Positions 6,766 to 45,076 of a stretch of 64,000 nucleotides of DNA are shown in pieces; the first letter of the stretch is position 1, and every line of letters starts with the position of its first letter. A program made the position numbers and the translations under genes. The DNA is from Gemmatimonadota bacterium (GTDB lineage: Bacteria; 4572-55; J002), in the NCBI GenBank assembly GCA_003697105.1, contig RFFQ01000146.1:28020-92019 (forward strand). Reading direction: 5' to 3'. Under the pieces are notes generated by a model, which searched no databases, was not told the DNA's origin, and saw only the letters and a program-made list of their open reading frames with translations.

Positions 6766-9700
6766 TTATTCACGTTTACGCAAATCGATAATCGGTTGGG
6801 CGTTTGCCGTTACTTGTAAGGTATCCATTTGTTTGTTGCAGAGGGTACCGGTGTCATCTTCTACGGTTAATGTAACGGTGTACACCCCCGGTTTTTCATA
6901 CTCATGGGTTACTTCCACGCCTTTGCCTGTATGGCCGTCCCCAAAATTCCAATAATAACTTAGATTGTCCCCATCAATATCGTAAGATTGGCTGCCATCA
7001 AAGGTCAGAGCACAGTTTGCGGTTTTCACACACGTGACCCGATCGTCACCGGCAATAGCAACCGGTGGGGTATTGGCTTTAATCGTTTTTGTGACGATGG
7101 TGGTGTTACATGCGCCGGTGGTGTTATCCGTCACACGCAAGGTCACAGTATAATGCCCTGCTTTGGCGAAAGTATGGGTCGCGGTTTTGCCTGAAACTTC
7201 CGGCGATCCATCCCCAAAATCCCAAAAGTAGCCGGTGATTTGCCCGTCGGAATCGGTGGAGGCGGCGGCATTCACTTCAAACGAGCTACCCGGACAGACG
7301 GAGGAAGGTGCGTCAATCTTCGCCAATGGCGGATTGTTGATGGAGACCTGCTTGACGTCTGTTGCCCGTCCAGAAGACAAGCCCGAATTATCGGTAACGG
7401 TCAAAATCACTTGATATACCCCCGGTTGCTTATAGGTATGCGTTGGTGCTACACCGGTTTGAGTCGGTGACCCGTCCCCAAAATTCCATTCGTATAAAAT
7501 GATTGTCCCGTCGGGATCCACCGACTGGGAGCCGTCAAATTGCACCGTCAAATCGCAGAGGCCATCAATATCCGGACCCGCATCCGCGACGGGTGGGGCA
7601 TTGACTGTCACGGTGAGTTGATCGATTGCCATGCTGCAATCCAGACCGGAATTATCTTCAACGGAAAGTGTTACCGTGTATCGCCCCGGTTCGCCATATT
7701 TATGGGTCGTACTTACCCCTTCGACCGGTTTGGAGCCATCCCCGAAATCCCAGCGGTACACCTTGATGTACCCGTCCCTATCAAAAGATTGCCCGCCGTT
7801 GACCGCAATTTCCTGATTCGGATTGACCAATTTATCATCTCCGGCAACAGCAACGGGTAAATCATTGACCAGAACAGTCTTAGAGATGTTACTCTTCGAG
7901 CAGGGCAACCCTCGTCCATCATCCACGGTGACAATGACTTTATAACGTCCCGGGGATTGGTAAATATGGGTCGTGGATAAGCCGGTACCCGTGTTTCCGT
8001 CGCCAAAATCCCATGTAGCTGTTAGGGGATCACCATCTGCATCAGTGGAGGCGGTGGCATCAAAGGAAGTGATTGCACCCACGCAAGTGTACTGCAACCG
8101 TTCGCCAATGTTCGGCGTGGGGGGTGCATTGATGGTTACTTGAGTTTTTGCAAAGGATTGGTTCATTTTTGTGTCGGAATTATCGGTAACGATCAGCGTT
8201 ACGTCATATGTGCCGGGTTGTTCATACAAATGGACGACTTTTGCACCTTTGCCGGTTTGCCCGTCGCCGAAATCCCACTGATAATCCATGATCATGCCGT
8301 CAGGGTCACTGGACCCGGAGGCGTTCAATTCTACCCGCCCGCTACAGACTACCTGTGACGGGTTCACCTTAGCCACCGGTGGATAGTTGATTACCACGAG
8401 CATTGTATCCCGGTCAAACCCTTCCGGTAGCCCGCTATCATCTCGCACGGTTAAAATTGCCTGATATTGCCCGGATTCTGCATACGGGTGGGTGACGATT
8501 TTCCCCGTTTCCACCGGTGAGCCATCCCCAAAATCCCACTCGTAACTCACGATGTTGCCATCTCGATCCGAGGAAGAGGAGCCATCAAACGTGATCTCTT
8601 GTCCGACGTGTCCGATTTGCATTCCTTCGGTCAGGGCTTCCGGGGGATAGTTGACGGTCACTGTGAGTTCGTCGGTGTCGTTACTGCACGGACCTAACGC
8701 CGTATTTTTTACGGAAAGTGTGACCTGATATTGCCCCGGTTTGCGATAGATGTGTGTTGCTGTCATGCCTTCCACCGGATCGGAAAGGTCGCCAAATGTC
8801 CATTTGTAGGTCAATGGGTATTGATTCGGGTCTTGAGACCGTTCACCGCTAAAATGAACTTCTTGTCCTACACTGACCAAGCGGTCTTCACCGGCATCGG
8901 CGGTGGGGGCGCTCTCTACGGTGATCGTTGCGGTATCGGTATCAATGGCGCAAGGTGTTTCGGAATTATCTTGAACCGTCAACACCACGTGGTAAACGCC
9001 GGGCGCAGCATAGGTGTAGGTGGGTGAAAGTTCTTCCACGGGCGCTGTTCCATCGCCGAAATCCCAAATATAGTTGAAGAGTTCCCCGTCTGGGTCAAAA
9101 GAGCCGCTGGCATCAAAAAAGATAGATTGACCAAGGCAGACCGTTCGATCCGGACCGGCTTCTGCCACGGGGGAGGAATTGATCCCGACGGTAATCTCCG
9201 CAAAATGGGTATTGCATTCGGACGGCGAATCATCCAACACCACCAGTTTGACCTTATAAACACCGGGTTGTTCATAGGTGTGTGTGGGTTGGGGTCCTTT
9301 ACCGACGGCACCATCGCCAAAATACCAGAGATACTCCATGATGACTCCGTCTGGATCGATTGATTGGCGCCCGTCAAATCGAACGGTTTTCTCACAAGAG
9401 ACGATATTTTCACCGGCGTTGGCTACCGGCGGTTCGTTGACAAACACGACCATGCCATCAGTATTGGTGTTACATTCGGTATCGGAATTATCGGTAACAA
9501 CTAGCCGTACATTATACGAGCCGGATTTTTCATAAGTATGTTCCACAATCGCACCTTCTGCCGAGTTTCCATCACCAAAATACCACATGTATTGGGTGAT
9601 AGTGCCATCGCGGTCATAGGACTTCGTGCCGTCAAAGCGGATCGTTTCGCCGACGCAGGAATAACGGGATGTACCGGCTTCGGCGACAGGTGGCTCATTG

Positions 9701-11292
9701 ATGATGATGGTCAAGGCGTCGGTGTCGGTATCATTTGCCGCACCGGAATTATCTTGCACGGAAACCGTCACGACATAGGAACCGGGTTCGCGGTAGGTGT
9801 GTACCACGCGCGCACCTTGGAGCTGTGTTCCATCGCCCATATCCCAGAAGAAACTAAGCAGATTGCCGTCGGGGTCCTGGGAGCGGGAGGCATCCAGTAC
9901 CACCGTATTGCAAAAGGGGAGCACATCCTCGCCGGGAACAAGCCCTTCATAAACTTGGCTACCATGAACTAACAACGTTTCATCCGGCAACACCGACCCC
10001 GCTTTGAGAGTCAAATCTTCTCGTAAGATGAGCGCTTCCTCCAATGTGACATCCCGATCCAAAACCGTCTGTGCTGGGATACGTTCTCCACCTCGCACCC
10101 GAATATCCTGTGGAATTTCGGTGCCCTTGGCGAGGGTTGTCCCTTTGGGTAAGACGGAACCCGCCCGAAGTTCCACATCAGACTGCACCACATGGCTTTG
10201 GTCGAATAAAATATCTTCGTCCAGCTCAAATAATTCGGGAGAAAAGGTCTCGTCTTGTAGCGTGAGGGGCTTGCCAGAACGAGGCTGGACGGTGGAATAC
10301 ATGGGAAGGGGTTGGTAGTTCTGGTCGGTGACATAGATCACCACATCATTATTACGGAAGGTTCCTTTTTGAATTTCAAACGTCCAGGGCGACTCGTAAT
10401 CTTCTTCTAAAATATTATACGTGGTAGAAAACCACCGTTTGACATCATCTTGGGGGGGAATCGGCGGATGTTCATCATCCACACCGAGATCATATTTGGT
10501 CACTGCCCAGACGTTATTTCCGGCGGTGTAGGCGGGTATTCCGGGTCGCGTTGGTGTGTTAAGATACATCACGCTATCATTATCAAAGTCCCAAATATGG
10601 TGAATGAGGTAAGTGACATCTCGCATAACCATAAACGGGAATGTATGCAATACCACCCCTTTTTCATTGGGCATCCGGAACGACCATTCATAGGCAAAGA
10701 CTTGAATCTCGGTTGGGGTGGTTGGTCGATCGGGGAAAATGGAGCAATCTACGCGGTATAGATTCCCGTCATCGCCCTGAATGCCTTCTACAATTAGTTT
10801 GAAGATAAAATCCCCGTCGGCATATTCCCCTTGCGCCGGATTCACGGTGGCAAGCACAATCCATTTTCCATCCGTTTCGAGCTGCTCGGCAAATGTTGTG
10901 TCCGCCAAAAGAGTCCCCGAGCGGTAATCTCCGGTAGGATTGACGCCGCGGGCATCAGCAACTGTATAGGCACCTTCTCCTCCGTAAAGCGAAAATCGTG
11001 TTTGGGTGTCCCACATCCCTTGTGGCTCATCAACTTGGCCGCCCGCTTCCGGATCATAAATACGGATATATAATGAATCCACAATTTCTTCCGGAATAGC
11101 GAAAAAGACGGTCTGTGAAAAATCGTCATCACCCCAATCTGGGGCACTTTGATTACCAAACGTACACAAATAGGGAATATTTAAACTGGGATGGGGGACT
11201 TCATCCGCTTCTTGGTAGGATGGTGTTCCGATGATAAAAAGGATTCCCAAAAACAGGGTTACGAGGACGTTACGGAACATCGGTGTAAACAT
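6766..11292 (-). CDS. Secreted multi-PKD-domain protein (12 PKD repeats)
   Basis: A 1508-aa exported protein. The ATG at 11292 follows an AAGGAGGAAGG-type ribosome site (about 11303-11313) and gives a signal peptide (FRNVLVTLFLGILFIIGT). Residues about 35-390 form an unrecognised beta-rich region. Next comes a short repeat segment (LRAGSVLPKGTTL / LKAGSVLPDETLL). Twelve PKD domains then run in tandem to the end, each about 85-90 aa and marked by W-x-FGDG (variants WDMGDG and KWTFGDL). PKD domains are beta-sandwiches common in surface and extracellular proteins, often in adhesion or carbohydrate contact. No sorting domain or anchor is visible at the C-terminus (LRKRE). The gene is divergent from the NTPase/coiled-coil operon, whose second product also carries PKD domains. 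Function unknown; a stalk or ligand-binding role is inferred. Confidence 0.9.
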   Translation of the reverse strand: MFTPMFRNVLVTLFLGILFIIGTPSYQEADEVPHPSLNIPYLCTFGNQSAPDWGDDDFSQTVFFAIPEEIVDSLYIRIYDPEAGGQVDEPQGMWDTQTRFSLYGGEGAYTVADARGVNPTGDYRSGTLLADTTFAEQLETDGKWIVLATVNPAQGEYADGDFIFKLIVEGIQGDDGNLYRVDCSIFPDRPTTPTEIQVFAYEWSFRMPNEKGVVLHTFPFMVMRDVTYLIHHIWDFDNDSVMYLNTPTRPGIPAYTAGNNVWAVTKYDLGVDDEHPPIPPQDDVKRWFSTTYNILEEDYESPWTFEIQKGTFRNNDVVIYVTDQNYQPLPMYSTVQPRSGKPLTLQDETFSPELFELDEDILFDQSHVVQSDVELRAGSVLPKGTTLAKGTEIPQDIRVRGGERIPAQTVLDRDVTLEEALILREDLTLKAGSVLPDETLLVHGSQVYEGLVPGEDVLPFCNTVVLDASRSQDPDGNLLSFFWDMGDGTQLQGARVVHTYREPGSYVVTVSVQDNSGAANDTDTDALTIIINEPPVAEAGTSRYSCVGETIRFDGTKSYDRDGTITQYMWYFGDGNSAEGAIVEHTYEKSGSYNVRLVVTDNSDTECNTNTDGMVVFVNEPPVANAGENIVSCEKTVRFDGRQSIDPDGVIMEYLWYFGDGAVGKGPQPTHTYEQPGVYKVKLVVLDDSPSECNTHFAEITVGINSSPVAEAGPDRTVCLGQSIFFDASGSFDPDGELFNYIWDFGDGTAPVEELSPTYTYAAPGVYHVVLTVQDNSETPCAIDTDTATITVESAPTADAGEDRLVSVGQEVHFSGERSQDPNQYPLTYKWTFGDLSDPVEGMTATHIYRKPGQYQVTLSVKNTALGPCSNDTDELTVTVNYPPEALTEGMQIGHVGQEITFDGSSSSDRDGNIVSYEWDFGDGSPVETGKIVTHPYAESGQYQAILTVRDDSGLPEGFDRDTMLVVINYPPVAKVNPSQVVCSGRVELNASGSSDPDGMIMDYQWDFGDGQTGKGAKVVHLYEQPGTYDVTLIVTDNSDTKMNQSFAKTQVTINAPPTPNIGERLQYTCVGAITSFDATASTDADGDPLTATWDFGDGNTGTGLSTTHIYQSPGRYKVIVTVDDGRGLPCSKSNISKTVLVNDLPVAVAGDDKLVNPNQEIAVNGGQSFDRDGYIKVYRWDFGDGSKPVEGVSTTHKYGEPGRYTVTLSVEDNSGLDCSMAIDQLTVTVNAPPVADAGPDIDGLCDLTVQFDGSQSVDPDGTIILYEWNFGDGSPTQTGVAPTHTYKQPGVYQVILTVTDNSGLSSGRATDVKQVSINNPPLAKIDAPSSVCPGSSFEVNAAASTDSDGQITGYFWDFGDGSPEVSGKTATHTFAKAGHYTVTLRVTDNTTGACNTTIVTKTIKANTPPVAIAGDDRVTCVKTANCALTFDGSQSYDIDGDNLSYYWNFGDGHTGKGVEVTHEYEKPGVYTVTLTVEDDTGTLCNKQMDTLQVTANAQPIIDLRKRE

Positions 11293-11388
11293 TGGGATTG
11301 ATCCTTCCTCCTTAAAATTTTGCTTGAAATATGCGCGGGCATGGTCTATAATTAGAAACAATTGCGGATTGTTGTACAGATTCCGTCC

Positions 11389-11417
11389 AGCTTAACATAA
11401 TCTCCCCCGATTGTCAA
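11389..11417 (-). promoter_or_regulatory. Candidate promoter for the 12xPKD gene
   Basis: On the minus strand TTGACA (11417-11412), a 17-bp spacer and TAAGCT (11394-11389). The -35 is perfect and the -10 weak. It lies in the 234-bp divergent region between the PKD gene and the NTPase/coiled-coil operon. Confidence 0.4.
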
Positions 11418-11526
11418 TAATTTTTCGGGATGATTTACTCCGGTTTATCATCCGGTGTAACTTGTTGATAATTAAATAGTTGTGGATGGCATTGATACCT
11501 TATTTAGCTCTAGAAAAGCGAAACGT

Positions 11527-14500
11527 ATGACCACCTATAACCCGTACCTTTCTGAGGCTGTTGACACGCCTTCTTTTTTTTATGGGCGCTCGGAAACAAT
11601 TCGTTTTATACTCAACCAACTGCAAGAACCTCAGGCTCACCCGATCATCTTGTTTGGACAGCGGAAAGCGGGTAAAACCGCCGTTTTTCGCCATCTACTG
11701 CACCTCAAACCGGAGGGGTTTGTGTGGGTCTATTTTGATTTGCAAGGGTATGTACATGCGCCGTTAGCGGAAACCCTGTTCCATTTGGCAGAAGCCATTG
11801 CGCACCAACTGGATATTGCCATTCCCACCAAAAAAACCTTTTTGAAAGATGACCATTTCTTTGAAACCAAATTTCTGAATCAAATTCGGAGTGCACTCAA
11901 AGACCGTCACCCGGATCAGCCTCCGGCAATGGTGTTGTTGCTGGATGAATTTCATCTACCGCGCGGAGCAGATGTTGCCCGCGACGACACTATTGTGACC
12001 TTTTTTCCCTTCCTCTACCAGTTATTACAAAAGGATGCACCGCTACGGCTGGTGCTCACTTTTGGACCGGAATTAGCCATTTCCTACCGGAACAATCCAC
12101 AGGCATATCAATTATTGACCCAAATTTTATCATCTCCACTGCTCCACGAGGGCGTGTCACATCATGTTACCTCTCTTTCCGTTGAAGACGCCCTAAAACT
12201 GATCAAAGAACCGGTTGGAAATCAATTGGTGTACAACCCGGAAGCCCTAGACCGCATTTTGAGCCTTGCTAGTACGTGTCCCTTTTTGATCCGCCAACTC
12301 TGCGGTCTTATCTATGAGAAAAAACAACCGGCTGACTCCGAACCGGTGGCGATCTATTCCACAGATGTGGAAGCGGTGAAAACCGAATTTATCCGCCGCT
12401 TGCACTCCCATTTTGATGCCCTCTGGGACGATCTGCCCCTCGTGCAAAAAGTGATTTTCTGGCTTATTGCCAAACACCGGGATTCTCAGGGTGCCGTTCC
12501 CCGGCAGAAATTGGTTTCTCTATTGGAACGCCAGCATATCAAATTGCCCAAAGGTTTATTCCAAAACCACGAGTTAGTAGCAGAAGAGAACCATGTTGTC
12601 CGGTTTCGCATCGGCGGTTTTGGGGATTGGCTGGTGGATCAGGATGTCGAAAATGATTTGATGATCGATTTTGGGCATGCCGAGAACTCCAACAAAGATG
12701 GGAGTAGTGCCCATTTTGCCGGTGAATTTGAACGGGCGCTGGAGTATTACCGGGAGGCGGTGGCTATCAATCCTTACCACCTAGATGCCCAGCTTGGTAT
12801 CGCCGAAGTCCTGAGCCAATTGGGACGCACCGAAGAAAGCATTGAGGAGTACGAAAAAGCGTACCAATTAGACCCGTTTTTTGTGGCAGATGATCTGGTC
12901 AATGCCCGCTTAAAGTATGCCGGAGAATTGGAACAAGCCGGCGATAAAAATGGCGCCATTCTGCAATACAGCCGTATCTTGGAAATCTCACCCAACCATA
13001 TGCGAGCCCAAGAGCTGTGGGCGGAGTTGGTACTGGAAAAAGGACAAAACTTGTGTGAACAGGAAAATTGGGACGACGCGATCTATTGGTACCAGCAACT
13101 CTTGAACGTGGCACCAGCCTTGACCGTGGCACGATGTGCCCTCGCCGAAGTATATCTGCGGAAGGGAGAGTACGAAGCGGCGGTGAATGAATATGAAAAA
13201 GCCCACAATATCGACCGCAGTGAATCTGTGGCACACGGTTTGGCAAAGGCACGCCTCAAATGGGGTGAAGAACTCAAAGAAGAGGGGATGACCCCAGAAG
13301 CAATTGCCAATTATAAGCGAGTTCTTCTCACCGAACCGGATGAGGAAACCCGGGAAACGACCATCGCCAATTTGGTTAAATTGATGCTCCGCCGGGCGGA
13401 TCAAAGTGCTCAAGCCGGTGACCTGTTAAAAGCTCGGGAGGAATATCGCCGCGTGATCGAGATGGACGGTAATTGCTTAGAAGCCATGATCAAAGAAGCC
13501 GGTGTTGTCTATGCCATGGGTGATTATGACGAAGCGATTCGCCTGTTTGAAGCCGCCTGTGAAATCAATGAGGACATCGCTAAACCCGCCATGATTGCCA
13601 CTCAACTCAATTATGCCGATCGATTAGCCACAAATGGCGCTTGGGACACCGCCATGGAGGTGTGCGACACCGTTCTTGCGCTCGACCCGGAAAATGTGTT
13701 GGCACAGGATAAACGCCGGCAATTTGAAGACCGCCGGAATCAGACTCCACCGGTGGCAGATGCCGGCACCACTGGTGAACCGGTTTCGACCGCTGATCCA
13801 GACCCCGTTACCGCGGATTCCGAGCAGGATACTGTTGACCTCGACCGGGAATACCAGCAGGCGATGGCATATCTGGAAAATAAACAGTGGGATGAGGCGT
13901 TGGAATCCCTCAATCATATTTTTGAACAGGACCCAGACTACCGGGATGCGGATCAAACCCCGATACCGGTCTGGATTAGCCGTGCCTTTTTGGCCCGTGT
14001 CGGGCTTGCCGAAGACCTCCTGCCCCAACGCATACAGCAGTTGGAAGCGGAACTTGCTGCCCTAAAAGACGCTCATGCGGTGGAATTAGAAACCTTGCGC
14101 ACGGCGGAAACTGAGGCAAGTTGGCAGTTAGAGTCGCTGGAAACCGAACGAGACCAGTTGCAGATAGAACTGAAAACCGTCCAGCGCCAATTAGCGGATG
14201 CCGAGGCAAAAGTCAAACAGATGGAGGCAGAAAACCTGATCCGGAATGCAGAAGTGGCTGCCCATTCACAAGACCTTTCGGTACACGTCACATCTGCCGA
14301 CCAAACTATCGATGAAATGAACGACTTGATCGCGCAACTGAATTTAGAAAAACAAGCCCTTAAACATGAAGTGGCGCAGTTGCGAGACCAATTACTGGAA
14401 CAAGCCGATCTGTTTGACCACTCGGAGGATACTCCCCAAGAGACCCTCTTGGCAGAGACGGAACAACTCCAGCACGAAAACGACCAACTCCGTAAAACGA

Positions 14501-17424
14501 ACGAGATGCTTGCCGCCCAACTCCAACGCTTACAAGAGGAAATAGAAGCCTCCGCCCCACCGGCTGAAACCGGAGCACCTGCGGCGGATCGCATTGCGGA
14601 ACTTGAAGCCCAGCTTGCCACGCTAAAAACAGAACGTAATGAGTTACAAACCGTACTGGATCAGGTACAGTCCGATGCGGCGGAGCTTAAACAGGAATTC
14701 ACAAGCCTACGCGAACAGCACCAGCATGACGCCGAGACCGTTAAAGCGCTGGAACAAGCAAATCGACAACTCCAAGAAGAAATCGTTGCCTTGGAACAGG
14801 ATGCGATTGACCCGCAGGAATTGAAACAAGCGGAAGAAACCATTGCCCAATTGACCCGTGAACGAGATCAATTGCAACTGGATTTGCAGGTCGCAAATGA
14901 AAAACTGAAAACCTTACAAAATTCGATCCAAAATACGCCGGATCGATCCGCTGAAATTAGGGCATTGGAAAACGAAATTGACATCCTCACAGAACGTTTA
15001 GAACACGCCACCGGTAAGGAAAACAAGCTGATCCAGAAAAACGTCAAGATGATGGACATCAACACCCGGTTGCTCAAACAGATTTCCGAATTGCAGACCG
15101 AAGTAGAGAATGCCCAATCCCGGCTAAATGAAACAACTCAGCGTTATGAAAAGACCGAAATTCCCGCCTACAGGCTCAAACTTGAAAATCTGAAACGGGA
15201 GTTGGAACAGCAGACGGCGGATTATGACCAATTACACGCTGAAGTGGAGCATCTTCGGGCAGAAAATCAGCAATTACACGATCAGATTGCGCAACTGGAA
15301 GACCGAACCTCTGAACTCGACCTCAACCTGAAAAGTTATGAAACAGACCAACTGCGACCGTTGGAACAGGAGGCGAATACACTCCGCCAACAATTGCACG
15401 AACGGGATCAGCAGATAAATGAACTCCAGAAAACCATTACCCGCTTGGAAACTCAATTGGACAACTTGAAGGCGGATTTGGCAGAGCAACAACGTCGCTA
15501 TGAGGAAGTTGAAATCCCAAAACGAGAAGATGCCATCCGGGCATTGGAAGCCCAACAGCAAGAACAGACGGCGGCTCAGACTGCACTGGAGGAACAACTC
15601 CAACGCACACAAGCCGAGCTAGATGACGCACGCCAACAATGGCGAGATATTGAGCACGATTATAAAACACTTCAAACGACGAACCAAGACCTCCAGCACC
15701 GAGTTGAAGACCTGCAACACCAATTGGAGACCATTCAACACGAACGAGACCAACTCCAACAAGAAATCACCGGTTTGCAGCAGAAATTAGAAGCAGAACA
15801 ATTCCGACATCAGGAAGAACGAAAGTCGTTAAAAAGCGAAATTGAAACGTTAGCCACGGAAGCCGAACAGTACGCCCTCCAGACGGATGAACTGCGACAA
15901 TTGCTCACCCAGCAACAAGCCACCGCCGAGAAACTGCGGGCAGAATATGACCACTTAGAAGAGCAATACGAACAGGTGCGCCTGCCAGAGCTAAACGAAA
16001 AAATTCAGACATTGCAAGAGAACGTCACTCATCTGGAAGCGCGACAGGTAGAACTGGAAAATCTGCTGGATAAAGCCGAACGCGATTTAGCCTACCGTCA
16101 GGAACGGCTGAACCAATTACAGCAACGATATGATACGGAAACGGCATCCTTGCGGCGACAAATTGAGAACCTCTCCCAAGCGCTCGAGGCAAAATCCGAC
16201 AATGAACAAAATCTATTGGAAAACAACACGGCGCTGACGCGTGCCAATACGGATTTGTTGCGACAGTTGTCGCAGTTAAAAGATGAACTGAATGAGGCTC
16301 AAAGACAACAAGCCCAATTTGAACAGATCGAACGCCTCCAGTTACAAAATGAAATCGATAAACTCAAGCGAACCTTAGCCACCGAGGAACACCAGCGAGA
16401 ACACTTGGAAAGCGAACTGGAAACGGCGACGCAGGCGCTGGAAGATGCGCATCAACGGGCAATAACTCTACAACAGGATTATGAAGAAAATGTGATTGCC
16501 CCCCTCCAACAAGAGGTGGATGACTTGCGCCGGACCGTGAATGAAGCTAAAACACATGAAGAGATTTTACAACGCCGGTTGCGTGAAATGGAGCAGGAAA
16601 ATCATCAATTGGTACGTGATCTGGAAGCATTGCGCGAAGAATATCAAACCGAACGCTTGCCCCAATTAGAGCGACAACTCAAAGACCAACAGGAAGAAAC
16701 GGCGGCTAAAGCCAACCGCATTCGTGAACTGGAGACCCAACTCCACATTAAGGACCAAGAGATGGCGGCGTTGCGGACAGAACTTCAGCAGATGCAAACA
16801 CACTATGAACAGGAACGCTTGGCTCCGTTAGAGCAGCGTCTGGCACAACTGGAAACGCAACTGTTTGAAGCCGAAGGTAACCTCAGTGATGCCCGGGCAC
16901 ATGCCACCTCCCTGCAAGACCAAATTGATGATTTACAGCAACAGTTGGAAGAACAACAAATTCGGTATGAAGTTCAGCAGATTAAGCCGCTGCAACACCA
17001 GATCGACCTTCTTCAACAAAAAGTAACCGCCGCGGAACGTACCGAAAATCAATTGAAGGCAAAAGCGGAAGATGCTGAATCCGCCCACCAGTATGCGTTG
17101 CAACAGATTGAAGTTTTGCAGGATGAAATCGATCTCCTGCGGGAAAAAGCCGATCACGTTCGCCAACAGTACGAACACGAGCGCATTCCCGCCTTGCAAC
17201 GAAAGATCGAGCGCCTCACCCAATCCAACCATGAAAAAAGTGAAAATATTGAACGGCTGAACCGGCTTCTTGCCGAAAAATTGGAAGAAGAAGAAGAATT
17301 GCTCCGCCACAATACGGAAATGAGTGATAGCAATACCCGTTTGTTAAAGAAAATCAATGAGTTGCAGCGAGAAATTGTCTCATTACGCCAACCGTTACCC
17401 AACGCTGATACGGAAGAGTCATGA
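11527..17424 (+). CDS. Giant P-loop NTPase-TPR-coiled-coil protein
   Basis: A 1965-aa protein with no signal peptide or membrane segment, so presumably cytoplasmic. Residues 1 to about 370 are a STAND/AAA-like ATPase: the entry motif NPYLSEAVDTPSFFYGR, Walker A FGQRKAGKTAVF with K50, and Walker B MVLLLDEFH with D140/E141. A winged-helix-like stretch follows. Residues about 390-730 hold TPR-like units (for example FERALEYYREAVAINP and AAVNEYEKAHNID), with one more pair near 775-800. From about 835 to the end is a very long Gln/Glu/Leu-rich coiled coil with a regular 54-residue motif spacing. ATG 11527 is preferred to GTG 11482 because it sits at the domain start; neither has a convincing ribosome site. 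It overlaps the next gene by 4 bp, implying translational coupling. It is not an SMC: there is no C-terminal ATPase half and no hinge. I do not recognise the full architecture; role unknown. Confidence 0.85.
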   Translation: MTTYNPYLSEAVDTPSFFYGRSETIRFILNQLQEPQAHPIILFGQRKAGKTAVFRHLLHLKPEGFVWVYFDLQGYVHAPLAETLFHLAEAIAHQLDIAIPTKKTFLKDDHFFETKFLNQIRSALKDRHPDQPPAMVLLLDEFHLPRGADVARDDTIVTFFPFLYQLLQKDAPLRLVLTFGPELAISYRNNPQAYQLLTQILSSPLLHEGVSHHVTSLSVEDALKLIKEPVGNQLVYNPEALDRILSLASTCPFLIRQLCGLIYEKKQPADSEPVAIYSTDVEAVKTEFIRRLHSHFDALWDDLPLVQKVIFWLIAKHRDSQGAVPRQKLVSLLERQHIKLPKGLFQNHELVAEENHVVRFRIGGFGDWLVDQDVENDLMIDFGHAENSNKDGSSAHFAGEFERALEYYREAVAINPYHLDAQLGIAEVLSQLGRTEESIEEYEKAYQLDPFFVADDLVNARLKYAGELEQAGDKNGAILQYSRILEISPNHMRAQELWAELVLEKGQNLCEQENWDDAIYWYQQLLNVAPALTVARCALAEVYLRKGEYEAAVNEYEKAHNIDRSESVAHGLAKARLKWGEELKEEGMTPEAIANYKRVLLTEPDEETRETTIANLVKLMLRRADQSAQAGDLLKAREEYRRVIEMDGNCLEAMIKEAGVVYAMGDYDEAIRLFEAACEINEDIAKPAMIATQLNYADRLATNGAWDTAMEVCDTVLALDPENVLAQDKRRQFEDRRNQTPPVADAGTTGEPVSTADPDPVTADSEQDTVDLDREYQQAMAYLENKQWDEALESLNHIFEQDPDYRDADQTPIPVWISRAFLARVGLAEDLLPQRIQQLEAELAALKDAHAVELETLRTAETEASWQLESLETERDQLQIELKTVQRQLADAEAKVKQMEAENLIRNAEVAAHSQDLSVHVTSADQTIDEMNDLIAQLNLEKQALKHEVAQLRDQLLEQADLFDHSEDTPQETLLAETEQLQHENDQLRKTNEMLAAQLQRLQEEIEASAPPAETGAPAADRIAELEAQLATLKTERNELQTVLDQVQSDAAELKQEFTSLREQHQHDAETVKALEQANRQLQEEIVALEQDAIDPQELKQAEETIAQLTRERDQLQLDLQVANEKLKTLQNSIQNTPDRSAEIRALENEIDILTERLEHATGKENKLIQKNVKMMDINTRLLKQISELQTEVENAQSRLNETTQRYEKTEIPAYRLKLENLKRELEQQTADYDQLHAEVEHLRAENQQLHDQIAQLEDRTSELDLNLKSYETDQLRPLEQEANTLRQQLHERDQQINELQKTITRLETQLDNLKADLAEQQRRYEEVEIPKREDAIRALEAQQQEQTAAQTALEEQLQRTQAELDDARQQWRDIEHDYKTLQTTNQDLQHRVEDLQHQLETIQHERDQLQQEITGLQQKLEAEQFRHQEERKSLKSEIETLATEAEQYALQTDELRQLLTQQQATAEKLRAEYDHLEEQYEQVRLPELNEKIQTLQENVTHLEARQVELENLLDKAERDLAYRQERLNQLQQRYDTETASLRRQIENLSQALEAKSDNEQNLLENNTALTRANTDLLRQLSQLKDELNEAQRQQAQFEQIERLQLQNEIDKLKRTLATEEHQREHLESELETATQALEDAHQRAITLQQDYEENVIAPLQQEVDDLRRTVNEAKTHEEILQRRLREMEQENHQLVRDLEALREEYQTERLPQLERQLKDQQEETAAKANRIRELETQLHIKDQEMAALRTELQQMQTHYEQERLAPLEQRLAQLETQLFEAEGNLSDARAHATSLQDQIDDLQQQLEEQQIRYEVQQIKPLQHQIDLLQQKVTAAERTENQLKAKAEDAESAHQYALQQIEVLQDEIDLLREKADHVRQQYEHERIPALQRKIERLTQSNHEKSENIERLNRLLAEKLEEEEELLRHNTEMSDSNTRLLKKINELQREIVSLRQPLPNADTEES
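15145..17205 (+). repeat. 54-residue periodic motif in the coiled-coil tail
   Basis: A motif close to Tyr-Glu-x-x-x-[Ile/Leu/Val]-[Pro/Ala/Lys/Arg]-x-Leu recurs. The Tyr (or Phe) codons are at 15145, 15337, 15499, 15661, 15967, 16129, 16318, 16480, 16642, 16804, 16966 and 17170. Seven intervals are exactly 162 bp (54 codons): 15337-15499-15661, 15967-16129, and 16318-16480-16642-16804-16966. Longer steps coincide with other inserted motifs. The repeats have diverged at DNA level, so this is a protein-level repeat. Confidence 0.75.
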
Positions 17425-20400
17425 TGGACAAAAACCGGTACGAACAGGAGATTGAGGATTTACGGCGCGAGATTGATAGCCTAAATCGTGTTTTGCGGGA
17501 AAAATCCGCCTACGAAGACCGTCTGCAAACCAAAAATAAACGGTTGATGGAACGCAACAACCAACTGTTTAAGCAGGTTGCCGAATTGCAAGGAGACGTC
17601 GCCCGTCTGCACCAGCAGGTGTTCGCGCTCAATAAATCACCGGAAAGCTACCAAACGGCGGTCTTGCAGGCTGAATTAGACCAGTTGCAATCGGTGGTGA
17701 ACGAGTTGCAATCTCGTGAAACATCGCTCCTCGCCGAGAATCAGCGCTTAAAAACGGATTTGAATCATTGGCGATCTGCCACGGCGCAGGATTCGCATGA
17801 GACGGTGCGTAAAACGGCTGAAATAGAGCAACTCAAACGGGCACGGCAAGAGGCCGAAGAACGCCTTTCCCGCAAAACCGCCGAATTTCTGGAACTGAGC
17901 GAACGCATTGGAGAACTGGATCGCATCTACGAAAAAACCATTGCGGAAGTCAAACGGTTACGCGAACAATTGACCGCGACGAAAGCGGAAAATCAGGACA
18001 AAACAGCCCGGCTGGCAAAGCTCCATGCTGAACAAGAAGACTTACAAGCACAATTGGTATCCCAGCAGTCCCGTGCGGCGGAGATGCAGGCGCAGTTGGC
18101 AGAGACTCGCTCTAAATTGAATCTGGCAGAGAAAAATATCCAACAGTTGACCGAAACTCTGCAAAAATATGAGCATCACCAAATACCGGTATTGCGCTCC
18201 CAACTGGATGATCTGAACCGCCAAATATCTGAAAAAGATAAAGAAATAAATATCTTACGCAAAAAAAATGAAGCCTTGGGGTCGGCAACCTCCGGTGCGG
18301 AGGCCTCCGCGGATGATGATGACACACGCCACCGGGAACTTCAACAGGAGGTGGAGCGTCTCAACAACGTGATCTCCCAAAAAGAGCGGGAACTGGAAAT
18401 TTTAGCGCAGGATAAGCAAAAACTGGTCGATCAACAACTTCATTTTCAGCAAAGTTTGCAAGCGGAACTTGCCGCGAAAATTGAACTGGAATTTCAACAG
18501 CGTGAACTCAACACCAAACTGGCCGCCGCCCAGCAAGAAATCGAGACGTTAAGAGCAGAACTTGCCGCTCGACCCGAACTGGCTACTGGCACGGATGGGC
18601 TTGAAACCGACCTCCAAAACTTGCAGGCACTGCTGGAGGAGCGGGATGCGACCATCGCCTCATTGAATGCCCAACTTTCTGAGATGGCAGACCCACTCGT
18701 CGCGGCTAAAGCTGAAAGTTTGCAACAGGAGTTGGATACCGCCCGGCGAAAAATTTCCGATTTGCGCACGGAAAATTCGTCTTTACAGCAGCAGTTGAAC
18801 GACTTGAAAACCGCATTGGAGCATCGTCACTCCATCGAAGCAGAGATTACCAGTCTATCTGCCACCATTGACCGGCTTAACCAATCGTTGGAAGCATCTG
18901 CGGCGGAAAAAGCCGATTTGAAGCGTGCCTATGATTCTCTGCGGCACGAGTGGGCAACACTTTACGAGCGTTTAAACCAACCCGAACCTGTGTCTTCCAA
19001 AAAGAAATATCCGGCGTTTTGGTTGTGGTCGGTCTTCTTTTTACTTCTGGCGGTGCTGTTGCTCTTTTTACCGGAAACCCTTGACCAAACCAAATCGGTG
19101 TTTCCCCTCTCCAACCCACCGGTTATAACCCGTTTGGGTGCTCCTGACTCGATGACCTCCAATGTCACCCCGGCACCTCCGGTTCCGAGTGCAGATTCAA
19201 CAACGGTAATCGCGGAAATGCCGCCGGAAAGCTCATCTCCGGCAGCTATAACCCCCGGCATCACTCCGGCTTCTGATTCAACAACGGTAATCGCGGAAAT
19301 GCCGCCGGAAAGCTCATCTCCGGCAGCTATAACCCCGCCTGCATCCGCACCGGAATCTGGAACGGTGGGTGCTGAACCGGCGCCGGAAACCGCTCCCCGC
19401 ATGACGGTAGAACCCGAAACGACACCGGTTGCCGGCACGCCCGCTTCCGCATCATCCCCGACGTTTACCTTACCGGCTACCGTTGATTTGAGTGTGGATG
19501 TCAGTGGTGGAGAAGCTCCCTTAAAAACCACGTTCCACGCCCCGTTGCCAGAACCCACACCGGATAATCTCAACTTTTTGTGGGATTTTGGGGATGGGGT
19601 AACCAGCCGTCAGGCATCCCCCACCCATACCTATGTCCAGCCGGGTATTTACACCACCCGTCTGAACTTGCAATACGGTCAGGATTCCAAAACGGTTGGA
19701 CAAGTCACGATTCAAGTGGATGCCCCCCCGCCCCCGCCAATTGCAGAAGCCTCGCTCGGCGAAGGGGATGCTAACCAAGGAAAACTCAAAACTGCTCCGC
19801 TGGCAACCCCAACCCCTAAACCCCGGTTGCAAGTCTCTACTACCGAAGGACGCGCCCCATTGGAAGTCCGTTTTTCATTAAGCGGGCTTGAAGGGATGCC
19901 GCATCTCTCCTATTTGTGGGATTTTGGGGATGGCAGTACCAGCAGTACCCAAGCGAATCCAACCCATATCTACCAAATGGCAGGAAATTATCGGGCTGTG
20001 GGTGTTGTCAAGCAGGGGAATCAAATTGTGGCGGAAGTCTCGCAGACGATTCGCGTGGTGCCGGATCAGCGCAATGTACGGATTCAACAGTTGCATGCCA
20101 TAGAAGAGATGGTTTTGATTCCGGCTGGAAATTTCCACATGGGTGATTTTCGAGGTGAACCGGATGCACAACCGCAAATTATTGTCTTCTTAGATACCTA
20201 TTATATTGATAAATACGAAGTTACCAATGCCCAATATGCGGAGTTTCTGAATCGTATCAATTATACACCAACAGATGATAAATTCATTGAAATTTCGCAC
20301 CCGGATTGTAAAATTTACTACGACTCGGATCAGGGATTTAAAGTTGAACCGGGTTATGAGTATTATCCCGTGGTTTGTGTCAGTTGGTACGGGGCAGATG

Positions 20401-20822
20401 CGTATGCCAAGGCACTGAATAAGCGATTACCCACCGAAGCGGAGTGGGAAAAAGCGGCACGGGGCGAACAAGATGTGCGCAGTTACCCTTGGGGAAATCA
20501 GTGGATCCCCAATATTGCCAACACCCGGGAACTCTCTTTGGGCAGTGGACCAACCAAAGTGGGGCGATTTCCTGCCGGTGAAAGCCCTTACGGGGTGGTT
20601 GATCTCATCGGGAATGTCTCTGAATGGTGTGCCGATTGGTATCAAGAAGATTTTTATCAGCGGCATTCTGGTAAGAATCCGGCGGGTCCCGTTTCGGGTA
20701 CGATGCGCGTTTATCGCGGCGGGTCTTACAGCGATCTGGGTGCGCATGCCCGCGTGTTTGATCGCGCCGCGGCAAGCCCAGATGCCAAGCATCCAACCCG
20801 AGGGTTTCGCTGTGCCCGGTAG
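17421..20822 (+). CDS. Membrane-anchored coiled-coil, 2xPKD, FGE-like protein
   Basis: An 1133-aa partner of the preceding NTPase, starting at ATG 17421 (a second ATG is at 17424) within its stop codon. Residues 1 to about 525 are coiled coil. A single hydrophobic helix (FWLWSVFFLLLAVLLLFLP, about 534-552) preceded by KKK predicts a cytoplasmic N-terminus and a periplasmic or outer C-terminus. A Pro/Thr/Ser-rich linker with an exact internal duplication follows, then two PKD domains (WDFGDG twice, about 690-770 and 800-880). The C-terminus (889-1133) is a formylglycine-generating-enzyme/SUMF1 fold domain (MVLIPAGNFHMGD, RLPTEAEWEKAARG, GNVSEWCADWY, RGFRCAR). The paired active-site cysteines of true FGE are absent from the RGGSYSDLGAHARVF segment, so a binding rather than catalytic role is likely. 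Confidence 0.85.
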   Translation: MMDKNRYEQEIEDLRREIDSLNRVLREKSAYEDRLQTKNKRLMERNNQLFKQVAELQGDVARLHQQVFALNKSPESYQTAVLQAELDQLQSVVNELQSRETSLLAENQRLKTDLNHWRSATAQDSHETVRKTAEIEQLKRARQEAEERLSRKTAEFLELSERIGELDRIYEKTIAEVKRLREQLTATKAENQDKTARLAKLHAEQEDLQAQLVSQQSRAAEMQAQLAETRSKLNLAEKNIQQLTETLQKYEHHQIPVLRSQLDDLNRQISEKDKEINILRKKNEALGSATSGAEASADDDDTRHRELQQEVERLNNVISQKERELEILAQDKQKLVDQQLHFQQSLQAELAAKIELEFQQRELNTKLAAAQQEIETLRAELAARPELATGTDGLETDLQNLQALLEERDATIASLNAQLSEMADPLVAAKAESLQQELDTARRKISDLRTENSSLQQQLNDLKTALEHRHSIEAEITSLSATIDRLNQSLEASAAEKADLKRAYDSLRHEWATLYERLNQPEPVSSKKKYPAFWLWSVFFLLLAVLLLFLPETLDQTKSVFPLSNPPVITRLGAPDSMTSNVTPAPPVPSADSTTVIAEMPPESSSPAAITPGITPASDSTTVIAEMPPESSSPAAITPPASAPESGTVGAEPAPETAPRMTVEPETTPVAGTPASASSPTFTLPATVDLSVDVSGGEAPLKTTFHAPLPEPTPDNLNFLWDFGDGVTSRQASPTHTYVQPGIYTTRLNLQYGQDSKTVGQVTIQVDAPPPPPIAEASLGEGDANQGKLKTAPLATPTPKPRLQVSTTEGRAPLEVRFSLSGLEGMPHLSYLWDFGDGSTSSTQANPTHIYQMAGNYRAVGVVKQGNQIVAEVSQTIRVVPDQRNVRIQQLHAIEEMVLIPAGNFHMGDFRGEPDAQPQIIVFLDTYYIDKYEVTNAQYAEFLNRINYTPTDDKFIEISHPDCKIYYDSDQGFKVEPGYEYYPVVCVSWYGADAYAKALNKRLPTEAEWEKAARGEQDVRSYPWGNQWIPNIANTRELSLGSGPTKVGRFPAGESPYGVVDLIGNVSEWCADWYQEDFYQRHSGKNPAGPVSGTMRVYRGGSYSDLGAHARVFDRAAASPDAKHPTRGFRCAR
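19194..19336 (+). repeat. 62-bp perfect direct repeat in the linker
   Basis: The 62 bases at 19194-19255 recur exactly at 19275-19336, an 81-bp (27-codon) offset that keeps frame. They encode a duplicated DSTTVIAEMPPESSSPAAIT peptide in the extracytoplasmic linker. The exact identity implies a recent tandem duplication and a likely site of length variation. Confidence 0.97.
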
Positions 20823-30308: not shown

Positions 30309-32096
30309 ATGTCCGAAACCGCTAAAAAACGAACTGTTTTGCTTGTTGATGATGATGCTTTTATCCGCGATTTTCTCAAGATGCTCTTGGAGTATCTGGA
30401 GTTTGAAGTGGAAATGGCGGAAAACGGTCAAGAAGGGGTGGATAAAGCCCAAAAAACGCCGTTTGATCTGATCGTCTCGGATATTGATATGCCCGTGATG
30501 AATGGCTTGGAACTGATCTCTGCGATCCGGCGTTTCAATGAAGATGTGCCCATTGTGATCCTCACCGGCAATGATGATGTCTCCACGGCAATTGAGGCGA
30601 TGCGGAAAGGTGCTTTTGATTACATATTTAAAGATGATAACATTCAGGAAGCGTTGCCGATTGCCGTCGATAAAGCACTGGAAAAGCGACGGTTAGAGGA
30701 AGAAAATAAACGATTACTCATCGACCTGCAGCAGAAAAACGCCGATCTAGAAGAGACCAATCGGATGAACGTCCAGTTGTTAGAACGGATTCAGGCATTT
30801 AATGAAGAGTTGCAAGAGAAAATTGCGGCGGCAACTTCGGAATTACGAGTGACAAACCAACTGCTAAACTTGAAAGTAGAAGAGCTTAATGCGTTACATG
30901 CCGTGGGGCAAGCGATCAGTTCCATCGTGCCGATGGATAAACTGCTCAATTTGATTATGGAGCGCAGTAAATTTTTGATGAAAGCAGAAGCAAGTTCACT
31001 GGCGATTATCAACCCTGACACCAATGAGTTGGAATTCCAAGTGGCGCAGGGCGATGCGGGTGACATCATGCGGAAAATTCGAGTGCCGGTTGATGAGAAT
31101 AGCATTGCCGGCTGGGTGGCAAAACATCAAAAACCTTTAGTGATAGAAGACGCTTACACTGACAAACGGTTTAACCCAGAATACGATAAAAAAACCGGTT
31201 TTCGCACCAAATCAATCATGTGCGTACCCCTGTTAGCCAAAAATAAAGTGATCGGCATTGTGCAGGTTATCAATAAGTTGAATGATTCCACGTTCAATGA
31301 GGTGGATTTAGAAGTATTTGATACCTTCTCGCACCAAGCATCCATCGCCATTGAAAATGCCCGTCTCTATGAAGCCTTGGAAAAAAAGGCGAATGAATTA
31401 CGGGAAACACTTGAGCGCGAGCGCCGGATCGCCATCGAAAAAGAGAAAATGGGGAAATTTATTCCGAAAACGGTACTGGATGAAATCCGTAAGAGCCGGG
31501 AGGAACATCTTGCGCTTGGTGGACGGCCGGTCACGGCTACCGTACTATTTTCCGACATCGCCGGCTTTACCCGTATCTCGGAAACACAGAAACCGGAAGT
31601 GATTGTCTCCTATCTGAATCATTACATGACCGCCATGACCCATATTATTGAATCCCATCAAGGAATTGTCGATAAATTCATGGGTGATGGTATCATGGCG
31701 GTATTCTCTCCAACAGATGGGGATGACCATCATGCCGATCATGCCGTGCAAGCCAGTATTGAAATGCAACAGGCCTCCCGCCAACTTTCCAAAGAATGGG
31801 TGAAATCCGGGTTGGGAGCGCTATCGATGCGAATTGGGTTGAATACGGGCAACATGGTTGCCGGGAATATCGGCTCAGAAACCCGTATGGATTATACTGT
31901 GATCGGGGATAATGTCAATTTGGCATCCCGGCTGGAAACCGCTTGCCCTCCGGGAGGCGTGCTGATGAGTGAAACCACATTTGCGCATCTAACCCAGACG
32001 TTCCCGACGAAAAAAATCGATCCCATTCATGTTAAAAATCGAGTGCAACCGGTGCAACCGTATTTGATCCCAAGCGAAACGATTGAGAGTTTGTAG
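30309..32096 (+). CDS. REC-GAF-class III adenylate cyclase response regulator
   Basis: A 595-aa soluble response regulator whose output is cyclic-nucleotide synthesis. Residues 1-125 are a receiver with D58 (LIVSDIDMP); the usual Lys-Pro reads FKDDN. A coiled segment follows, then a GAF domain (about 195-345; LLNLIMERSKFLMKAEASSL, IMCVPLLAKNKVIGIVQVIN). The C-terminal class III cyclase has both metal-binding Asp residues (FSDIAGFTRISE and KFMGDGIMAVF) and the DYTVIGDNVNLASRLE block. Thr before VIGD fits the class IIIb adenylate cyclase pattern, so cAMP is the likely product. An aaggag site (30293) precedes the ATG. Probable partner: the kinase at 28767. Confidence 0.92.
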   Translation: MSETAKKRTVLLVDDDAFIRDFLKMLLEYLEFEVEMAENGQEGVDKAQKTPFDLIVSDIDMPVMNGLELISAIRRFNEDVPIVILTGNDDVSTAIEAMRKGAFDYIFKDDNIQEALPIAVDKALEKRRLEEENKRLLIDLQQKNADLEETNRMNVQLLERIQAFNEELQEKIAAATSELRVTNQLLNLKVEELNALHAVGQAISSIVPMDKLLNLIMERSKFLMKAEASSLAIINPDTNELEFQVAQGDAGDIMRKIRVPVDENSIAGWVAKHQKPLVIEDAYTDKRFNPEYDKKTGFRTKSIMCVPLLAKNKVIGIVQVINKLNDSTFNEVDLEVFDTFSHQASIAIENARLYEALEKKANELRETLERERRIAIEKEKMGKFIPKTVLDEIRKSREEHLALGGRPVTATVLFSDIAGFTRISETQKPEVIVSYLNHYMTAMTHIIESHQGIVDKFMGDGIMAVFSPTDGDDHHADHAVQASIEMQQASRQLSKEWVKSGLGALSMRIGLNTGNMVAGNIGSETRMDYTVIGDNVNLASRLETACPPGGVLMSETTFAHLTQTFPTKKIDPIHVKNRVQPVQPYLIPSETIESL

Positions 32097-43386: not shown

Positions 43387-43435
43387 GTGATCTTTGAATA
43401 TATTCGACAGTCACCCTTAACTTTAGGAGGTGTAC

Positions 43436-45076
43436 ATGGATTTTAATTATGAGAGATTGACTGAAACGCTCACGCCTTCAACGTTTGCACTTATACTTAA
43501 AAATTCATTTACAAAATCGGAAATTATAAATTATGCGCGAAAATGCGGGGTGAATTATCAAGGTCGGCGGATTAAATCGGTACCACTTCCGCAACTTATT
43601 GAAGACTTAAATGAAAATTTTCAAAATGATCCCAAATTTGCAAAATCATTTATTCGATCTTTATCTAAAAAAAATGCAAATTATATCGACCGTTTCAAAG
43701 AGATGTCTCCTGCCGATATTCACGCCTATTTGGAGACCGAAAAAGCCAATTATGTTGCGCAAGATGCGGTTGGGAATATTCTATGTGCGTTATGGCTGGA
43801 TACCCGTGATGATGTTCACCATCTTTACGACCAACTCCGGGATGAATTGGTGGACTTGCTCAAACCAACCGCCCCAATCTCCCCCAAAAAGAATGGCGCC
43901 ACCGTGACTCCCACAACTGAAACACCACCCGATAAATCGCCGGGATCGATAACTGAAGCCGAAATTCATCACCCGCCCACAGACGAACTTCAGTTACTCA
44001 AAGAAGCGAATCAAAAGCTACAAAATGATCTTCGGACTGCCCAACGTGAGATTCAACGACTTTCTGCGGCTTTAAAAGACCAGCAAGACGCCACAGAAGG
44101 TTTGCGAACGCGGCTCAAAACGCGGCGCACCGATGCCAAACAGTATCAGGCAGAGCGGGATCAGTTGGAAAAAAAACTGAAAGCGGCACTGGAAGAAATC
44201 GAACATCTTAAAGCACAGTTAGCGCAACTCCAACCGCATACCGACGTGATAGACGACCTCTACAGCCAAATCCGGCGTTTGGAACGGGAAAATCGTAAGT
44301 TGGAATACGATCTAAATAAAGCCAATCAAGATCGTCTGGAATGGCAATCCAAGCCAAACCCATTTTTTGAAGCGCTGGAAAAAGAGATGCGCTCTCAAAA
44401 AGAAGAATTGCGCCAATTACACTTGCTGGGTCAAGACCGGGATGAGAAGGTGTTGAGATTATTGAACTCAGTGATCCAGCAACAAGGACATACCCGCCGT
44501 GAGGTGGACCGGCTCCGTGAAATTTTGGAATCACAAGGTAAACGCCCACGAGGTAAAAGTGATTTGGAGCGCGTGGCGGTCTTTGTGGATGTCCAGAACA
44601 TGTTTTATGGCGCGAAAAAGCAGTTCAATGCTCGCTTAGATTACGCCAAACTCCTAGATGCGGCGGTAGGCAAACGGCGGTTGATTCAAGCGACTGCTTA
44701 CGTCGTGCAAACCCCGGAAATCGATCAGAGTGCGTTTGTATCTATGCTCCAGCATCGAAATTACACCGTTAAAACTAAGGACTTACGGCTGCGGGCAGAT
44801 GGATCCGCCAAAGGCGATTGGGACATGGGAATGGCGCTAGATATGCTCCGTATGGCGGAACGTGGCGTTGATGTGATCTCTTTGGTGAGTGGGGACGGCG
44901 ATTTTGTCGATCTTGTCAACTTGATCAAAACCAAAGGGCCAAAAGTGGAAGTGTTTGCGTTTACGCAAAATATTGCGGTGGATTTGCGTGAAGCCGCCGA
45001 CCACTTTTATGCGATTGGAACAGACCTGTTACTGGGGTTTGATACCGTGAGTGAGGAAAAAGAAGCTGTTAGTTAA
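43436..45076 (+). CDS. Coiled-coil protein with C-terminal NYN (LabA/DUF88-like) nuclease domain
   Basis: A 546-aa protein. The first 145 residues form a helical domain I do not recognise (ALILKNSFTKSEIINYARKC; SPADIHAYLETEKANYV). A coiled coil covers about 185-375. Residues about 378-530 are a NYN/PIN-like domain with acidic catalytic candidates D385 (AVFVDVQN), the KGDWDMGMALD helix and D487/D489 (SGDGDFVDLV). NYN domains are RNA-cleaving in characterised members. The aggagg at 43425-43430 fixes ATG 43436 rather than GTG 43430. The upstream sequence is A/T-rich compared with the neighbours. It is followed 18 bp later by the MshEN-TonB fusion gene. Confidence 0.88.
   Translation: MDFNYERLTETLTPSTFALILKNSFTKSEIINYARKCGVNYQGRRIKSVPLPQLIEDLNENFQNDPKFAKSFIRSLSKKNANYIDRFKEMSPADIHAYLETEKANYVAQDAVGNILCALWLDTRDDVHHLYDQLRDELVDLLKPTAPISPKKNGATVTPTTETPPDKSPGSITEAEIHHPPTDELQLLKEANQKLQNDLRTAQREIQRLSAALKDQQDATEGLRTRLKTRRTDAKQYQAERDQLEKKLKAALEEIEHLKAQLAQLQPHTDVIDDLYSQIRRLERENRKLEYDLNKANQDRLEWQSKPNPFFEALEKEMRSQKEELRQLHLLGQDRDEKVLRLLNSVIQQQGHTRREVDRLREILESQGKRPRGKSDLERVAVFVDVQNMFYGAKKQFNARLDYAKLLDAAVGKRRLIQATAYVVQTPEIDQSAFVSMLQHRNYTVKTKDLRLRADGSAKGDWDMGMALDMLRMAERGVDVISLVSGDGDFVDLVNLIKTKGPKVEVFAFTQNIAVDLREAADHFYAIGTDLLLGFDTVSEEKEAVS

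Follow-up and report, generated by a model that had tools for sequence, protein, structure and literature searches.

A candidate STAND receptor divided between two adjoining coiled-coil genes of a Gemmatimonadota bacterium

The window considered here is the whole stretch of DNA that was analysed, 64,000 nucleotides in length. Three large genes, designated P1, P2 and P3, and a candidate promoter lie close together within it:

6766 to 11292, minus strand: P3, an exported protein with an N-domain and 12 PKD domains, judged to lie outside the P1/P2 system
11324 to 11352, plus strand: candidate sigma-70-like promoter for P1/P2 (TTGAAA-17-TATAAT, 11/12), with promoter matches overall at shuffle expectation
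11527 to 17424, plus strand: P1, predicted STAND ATPase, TPR array and long coiled coil, from its probable ATG start (homologues, Pfam, model)
17421 to 20822, plus strand: P2, coiled coil, transmembrane (TM) helix, two PKD domains and FGE-like domain, 1133 aa (Pfam, TM and coil prediction)

An ORF check confirmed all three reading frames where the first-pass annotation had placed them, and its description of three large genes was borne out by the ORF list, Pfam and the coil and TM predictions, with the starts of P1 and P3 corrected. The P1 ORF (1980 aa, 11482-17424, plus strand) is open from a GTG at 11482. However, the start is most likely the ATG at 11527, because homologues begin at the NPYxxG motif. 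For P3 (ORF of 1531 aa, 6766-11361, minus strand) the most likely start is the ATG at 11292, with AAGGAGG upstream. The 4-bp overlap reported for P1 and P2 is indeed present as ATGA, with a Shine-Dalgarno-like GGAAGAG upstream of the P2 start, and suggests translational coupling of the two genes. P1 and P2 are read in different frames, so that a single fused gene might have been broken by a frameshift near 17406-17424. It is nevertheless highly improbable that the division arose as an artefact of assembly or sequencing: the end of P1 (QPLPNADTEES) is a non-coil tail, P2 begins at a start of its own with GGAAGAG, and the own-frame stop that sits 4 codons ahead of this start argues against a frameshifted fusion.

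The divergent gene P3 carries 12 PKD stretches according to Pfam, just as had been claimed. Its N-domain occurs in two further copies in its own genome (C180, C96), and relatives are found in the sister genome (C81, with 48% identity, and C72). No coiled-coil pair stands beside any of these four paralogues. The first-pass annotation had counted the PKD gene as part of one apparatus and had taken its conservation beside the coiled-coil genes as the measure; by that measure the three-gene unit is unsupported. P3 was rejected as a third component, being a member of a multi-copy family that the sister genome also keeps, with no pair beside it. The exported family (L026:168-5330 and L187:3966-8717 in the own genome; L186:6291-10493 and L188:6467-11572 in the sister genome) combines a common N-domain (FGNxxxxxWGDDDF), for which no Pfam match was recognised, with roughly 10-16 PKD domains; no anchor was seen in it.

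The product of the first coiled-coil gene is built from three regions:

11527 to 12681, plus strand: P1 ATPase domain of predicted STAND type, NBD-helical-winged helix (alignments, AF2 model, VIA)
12694 to 13956, plus strand: P1 TPR array, residues ~405-825 (Pfam, model)
14059 to 17421, plus strand: P1 coiled coil, ~1120 residues, ~165 nm if a single continuous helix (coil prediction, periodicity, self-repeat)

In the Pfam search of P1 an AAA_22/ATPase_2-type domain and the TPR array were recognised, without an nSTAND match. The Walker A (GQRKAGKT) and Walker B (LLLDE) motifs are intact and occupy conserved alignment columns. An AlphaFold2 model of residues 16-860, based on an alignment of 45 sequences, reached a mean pLDDT of 86.6. 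Its first ~380 residues match PABY2304 (2qen; VIA Z 22.1, 315 aligned, 4.5 Å), and the modelled ATPase also resembles SSO1545 (2fna; Z 19.2), the NLR resistosomes 9h2l and 9cc9 (Z 18.6 and 18.4) and CED-4 (2a5y; Z 16.9). In the model, the domain is arranged as in STAND proteins, with the NBD-helical-winged helix order of NLR/CED-4, while the TPRs (Pfam and model) supply the superstructure-forming repeats expected beside a STAND NTPase. The earlier description of a STAND-like ATPase with a TPR array and a tail of >1100 residues thus holds on the fold matches, the TPRs and the length of the coil; no TM was predicted in P1. In the tree the P1 ATPase forms a long branch (2.24) outside the FGE-bearing relatives, with no secure sister. 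A P1 paralogue in the own genome (C67, L022:9491-13933) is a 1480-aa ATPase-TPR-coil protein that also contains a long acidic linker and has a helical domain at its C-terminus; it has no adjoining coil-TM-FGE gene as counterpart of P2. Elsewhere in the own genome (C40, L023:996-6332), a TPR-TM-TPR-ATPase protein adjoins a second protein in which nSTAND2 and a Ser/Thr kinase domain are fused.

The second gene encodes the following parts:

17421 to 18980, plus strand: P2 coiled coil, putatively cytoplasmic, residues 1-520, ~77 nm (coil prediction, periodicity)
19005 to 19067, plus strand: P2 single TM helix, about residues 529-549 (TM prediction; KKK on its N-side)
19482 to 20072, plus strand: P2 two PKD domains, approximately residues 688-884 (Pfam; low-to-middling model confidence)
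20082 to 20819, plus strand: P2 FGE/C-type-lectin-fold domain, lacking both catalytic Cys of FGE (Pfam, model)

The Pfam domains and the one predicted TM agree with the proposed layout of coil, single TM and PKD-PKD-FGE-like domains. Because KKK precedes the TM, the positive-inside rule points to an N-in orientation, in which the coil would be cytoplasmic and the PKD-FGE part would lie outside the inner membrane. The C-terminal domain was identified as FGE-sulfatase (PF03781, E 6e-56), and its model, which rests on an alignment of FGE-fold homologues, matches 2q17 with a VIA Z of 27.6. The catalytic cysteine pair of FGE is missing (YSDLGAHARV in P2 versus YLCHDSYCNRYRV), as it is in the aligned receptor relatives. 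FGE enzyme activity was rejected on this ground. Since the pair is missing, binding is likelier than catalysis, and the domain is probably a lectin-like ligand-binding head.

Both coils show a hydrophobic periodicity of 3.52-3.59, with a power far above that of shuffles. Over ~660 residues of the P1 coil a weak self-repeat of ~54 residues was found, often marked by YExxxIPxL. Matches of P1 and P2 to SMC, Rad50, LmuB and Jet fall only on the coils and were dismissed. It is conceivable, though unlikely, that the two proteins are mainly structural, forming a coiled-coil scaffold or an intermediate-filament-like rod that is tied to the envelope by P2 and whose assembly is regulated by the ATPase. 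The sum of ~1640 coil residues (~165 + 77 nm if extended) and the self-repeat in P1 speak for such a rod, and coiled-coil-rich proteins are described as making bacterial filaments (PMC7002697, PMC2776988). The relatives of the ATPase, however, bear short coils and sensor-type ectodomains. The filament-formers known to us, moreover, are dominated by their coils and carry neither a STAND ATPase nor a lectin-like ectodomain.

A module of 63 residues is common to both coils:

14935 to 15123, plus strand: copy P1a, core a-layers I-L-E-N-N
16120 to 16308, plus strand: copy P1b, core a-layers I-L-E-N-N
17206 to 17394, plus strand: copy P1c, core a-layers I-L-E-N-N, ending 9 residues before the P1 C-terminus
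17430 to 17618, plus strand: copy at the P2 N-terminus, core a-layers I-L-E-N-N

The N-terminal 63 residues of P2 match P1 ungapped at residues 1152, 1547 and 1909. At the three P1 sites this 63-mer scores 97, 86 and 86, and other P2 63-mers score at most 78; the best ungapped P1-P2 match reaches 113, compared with at most 86 for heptad-preserving shuffles. The 'a'-layer core I-L-E-N-N is invariant in all four copies. In six genomes (the own genome, the sister genome and four of the KSB3 phylum) no further copy was found, the four known ones matching by construction. In coiled coils, buried asparagines are known to determine the register and the orientation of the helices. The P1 and P2 coils may accordingly be pictured as joining at the module, where the C-end of P1 would meet the N-end of P2. 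The linkage through coiled coils that had been proposed is therefore strengthened, both by this specific module and by single-chain relatives that keep the same domain order. That the coils are adjacent yet separate in function, their likeness being general coil likeness or the trace of an old duplication, is improbable. Their compositional resemblance and the presence of the pair in no second genome would fit separate functions; the core-specific module at both junction termini, in no other protein of the six genomes, the ATGA overlap and the single-chain relatives would not.

These relatives were collected by a scan of genome contigs, which gave 79 loci related to the P1 ATPase, mostly from Chloroflexota, Cyanobacteria, Thiotrichales and KSB3; the scan used one Walker-A pattern and is biased towards that motif. 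A TM was predicted after the ATPase in 46 of the 91 ATPase-bearing proteins (11 of the 91 are truncated). The usual order is ATPase, TPR, often a short coil, TM and then a variable C-terminal domain. Among 36 post-TM regions, Peripla_BP_6/ANF was found in eight, FGE in four and BNR in two, with individual cases of SBP_bac_3 (L069) and WD40. Such domains typically bind ligands, which supports their placement outside. At 8 of the 79 loci (L051, L067, L068, L082, L088, L089, L097, L098) ATPase and FGE occur in one chain. A TM separates them in five of these eight; in the other three (L068, L097, L098) none is predicted, so that the FGE domain is not always outside. In L067 and L048 a coil stands directly ahead of the TM. 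Taken together, P1 and P2 match the ATPase-TPR-TM-ectodomain order, in two genes instead of a single polypeptide. Since the relatives hold the same parts in one chain, the pair can be read as a STAND receptor architecture split over two genes, its coils hugely lengthened. A second ATPase gene (~430 aa) adjoins many, not all, of the relatives and is missing beside P1/P2. No description of the ATPase-TPR-TM-ectodomain family was found in a literature search. One further Chloroflexota protein (L042:9908-14185, 1425 aa) unites a STAND ATPase-TPR-FHA part with a full ABC transporter (ATPase and membrane domain).

A second split pair was found neither among 60 relatives searched with the P2 coil, nor among 386 searched with the ATPase, nor in four KSB3-phylum genomes. 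The class to which one Anaerolineales genome belongs was covered with 396 genomes; 46 of them carried the ATPase at E <= 1e-20, and a split with giant coils was seen in none of the 14 regions that were inspected. Neither the P2 coil nor the ppk query gave a match in the sister genome. A gene run in KSB3 DOLJORAL78 (L095:14402-20213; TPR-coil, TPR-coil, coil-TM) resembles partners of the soluble-coil/membrane-coil kind; a search for the shared module in the DOLJORAL78 genome found no copy.

Downstream of P1/P2, and in the same direction, lie genes for a polyphosphate kinase (ppk) and a hybrid PAS histidine kinase. The neighbours are housekeeping and signalling genes, and those annotated include no evident mobile element and no gene for an effector or for defence. 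Neither P1 nor P2 nor the genes that follow them showed an effector or output domain. Elsewhere in the window, on the plus strand, lie a response regulator-GAF-adenylate/guanylate cyclase protein (30309-32096), an NYN nuclease-type domain with a coiled coil of ~120 residues (43430-45076) and a MshEN domain of the c-di-GMP-binding type joined via a TM to TonB_C (45095-46633). Defence, one of the options first left open, is supported by neither neighbours nor domains: PADLOC matches to P1/P2 are confined to the coils, and the marks of Avs and PADLOC defence systems, a fused or adjacent effector and a defence-family match off the coils, were not seen. Nothing at the locus points specifically to defence, and it is not favoured.

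A role in sensing antigens has been proposed for FGE-fold domains that are attached to STAND proteins (PMC10907252), and in multicellular bacteria STAND proteins with FGE/CLec domains are proposed to act as sensors in conflict (PMC7159879, PMC10907252). A conflict system against phage or for cell death, in which the FGE domain would sense the antigen, would agree with these proposals and with the occurrence of relatives in Chloroflexota, Cyanobacteria, Thiotrichales and KSB3. We regard it as a poor prospect for P1/P2, given the absence of an effector domain from P1, P2, ppk and the hybrid histidine kinase, the coil-only PADLOC matches and the nature of the neighbours. Nor did a search of the own genome, an assembly in 199 contigs, find a near-identical copy of the FGE 3' end that could serve as the template of a diversity-generating retroelement (DGR); the matches found were distant paralogues (73-84% over 38-119 bases).

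The reading best supported, because of the architecture of the relatives and the shared module, is that P1 and P2 form one transmembrane STAND receptor from two chains, and we consider this probable. P2 would be anchored by its single TM, with the N-terminal coil in the cytoplasm, PKD-PKD-FGE outside the inner membrane and the FGE-fold head binding a ligand in a lectin-like manner. P1 would be cytoplasmic, with its STAND ATPase and TPR superhelix carried on the long coiled-coil arm. The two arms would be joined by the 63-residue module, whose repeated polar core layers, Glu-Asn-Asn at consecutive 'a' positions, would determine the partner and the register of pairing. An outside ligand would then alter or cluster the P2 coils and bring the P1 ATPase domains together, and the gathered ATPases would undergo nucleotide exchange and oligomerisation. 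STAND proteins switch in just this way, by nucleotide exchange and oligomerisation. The pairing, the ligand binding, the switching by oligomerisation and any output are what we infer. Several findings count against a receptor: the pair was seen in no second genome searched, the length of the coils far exceeds what a receptor requires, the P1 ATPase stands apart in the tree, the second ATPase gene is missing, there is no output domain, and the paralogue L022 lacks a P2. Of the ATP-driven switch joined via coils to an external sensor, as first proposed, the switch and its coupling are supported by the STAND fold, the order in the relatives and the module; a part for the third gene is not supported.

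The role for which STAND NTPases are best known is that of immune sensors in the cytosol. The relatives point to a broad family of STAND receptors in filamentous and multicellular bacteria that span the membrane and can exchange one ligand-binding head for another. P1/P2 appears to be an unusual two-part version of this design, made elsewhere as one protein. The locus would offer a STAND receptor design split over two chains, together with a candidate pairing code. More tentatively, and with considerable doubt, a bipartite coiled-coil tether of up to about 240 nm when extended may connect a lectin-like head outside the cell with the cytoplasmic STAND ATPase via a dedicated polar-core coupling module. 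If so, it would be a long-range STAND receptor, possibly mechanical or scaffold-forming; we know of no STAND receptor of this type. If the pairing of P1 with P2 is confirmed, the locus would provide a compact system for testing how a signal from outside could reach a STAND switch through a coil.

Among known systems, the archaeal ATPases SSO1545 and PABY2304 (2fna, 2qen) are the closest fold match to the P1 ATPase domain. They are ATPases that stand on their own, with no TPR, coil or TM attached. GldK/PorK and TvpA place an FGE fold outside the cytoplasm, as proposed for P2 (VIA Z 26.0 and 26.1). However, these T9SS ring proteins and this DGR variable protein are not part of an ATPase receptor. 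The S-helix, with polar residues inside the core of a signalling coil (PMC1592074), is comparable to the shared module in the principle of polar core layers. DGR-targeted STAND-CLec/FGE proteins of multicellular bacteria (PMC10907252) resemble P1/P2 in combining a STAND NTPase with a C-terminal FGE-type CLec as putative sensor. They are of the nSTAND1/NACHT type, whereas P1 is of the ATPase_2 type and the chains are split. The KSB3 DOLJORAL78 protein L098 (= G237, 932 aa) likewise combines ATPase, TPR and FGE-like domain, all within a single chain, but has, unlike P1/P2, neither predicted TM nor long coil nor PKD. The single-chain STAND proteins of Chloroflexota, Cyanobacteria and Thiotrichales (L051, L067, L088, L089; Peripla_BP forms L059 and L080) show the same order as P1+P2, with ATPases only ~25-28% identical to that of P1. 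P1/P2 differs from them in its two genes, a several-fold longer coil, a spacer of two PKD domains and the shared module.
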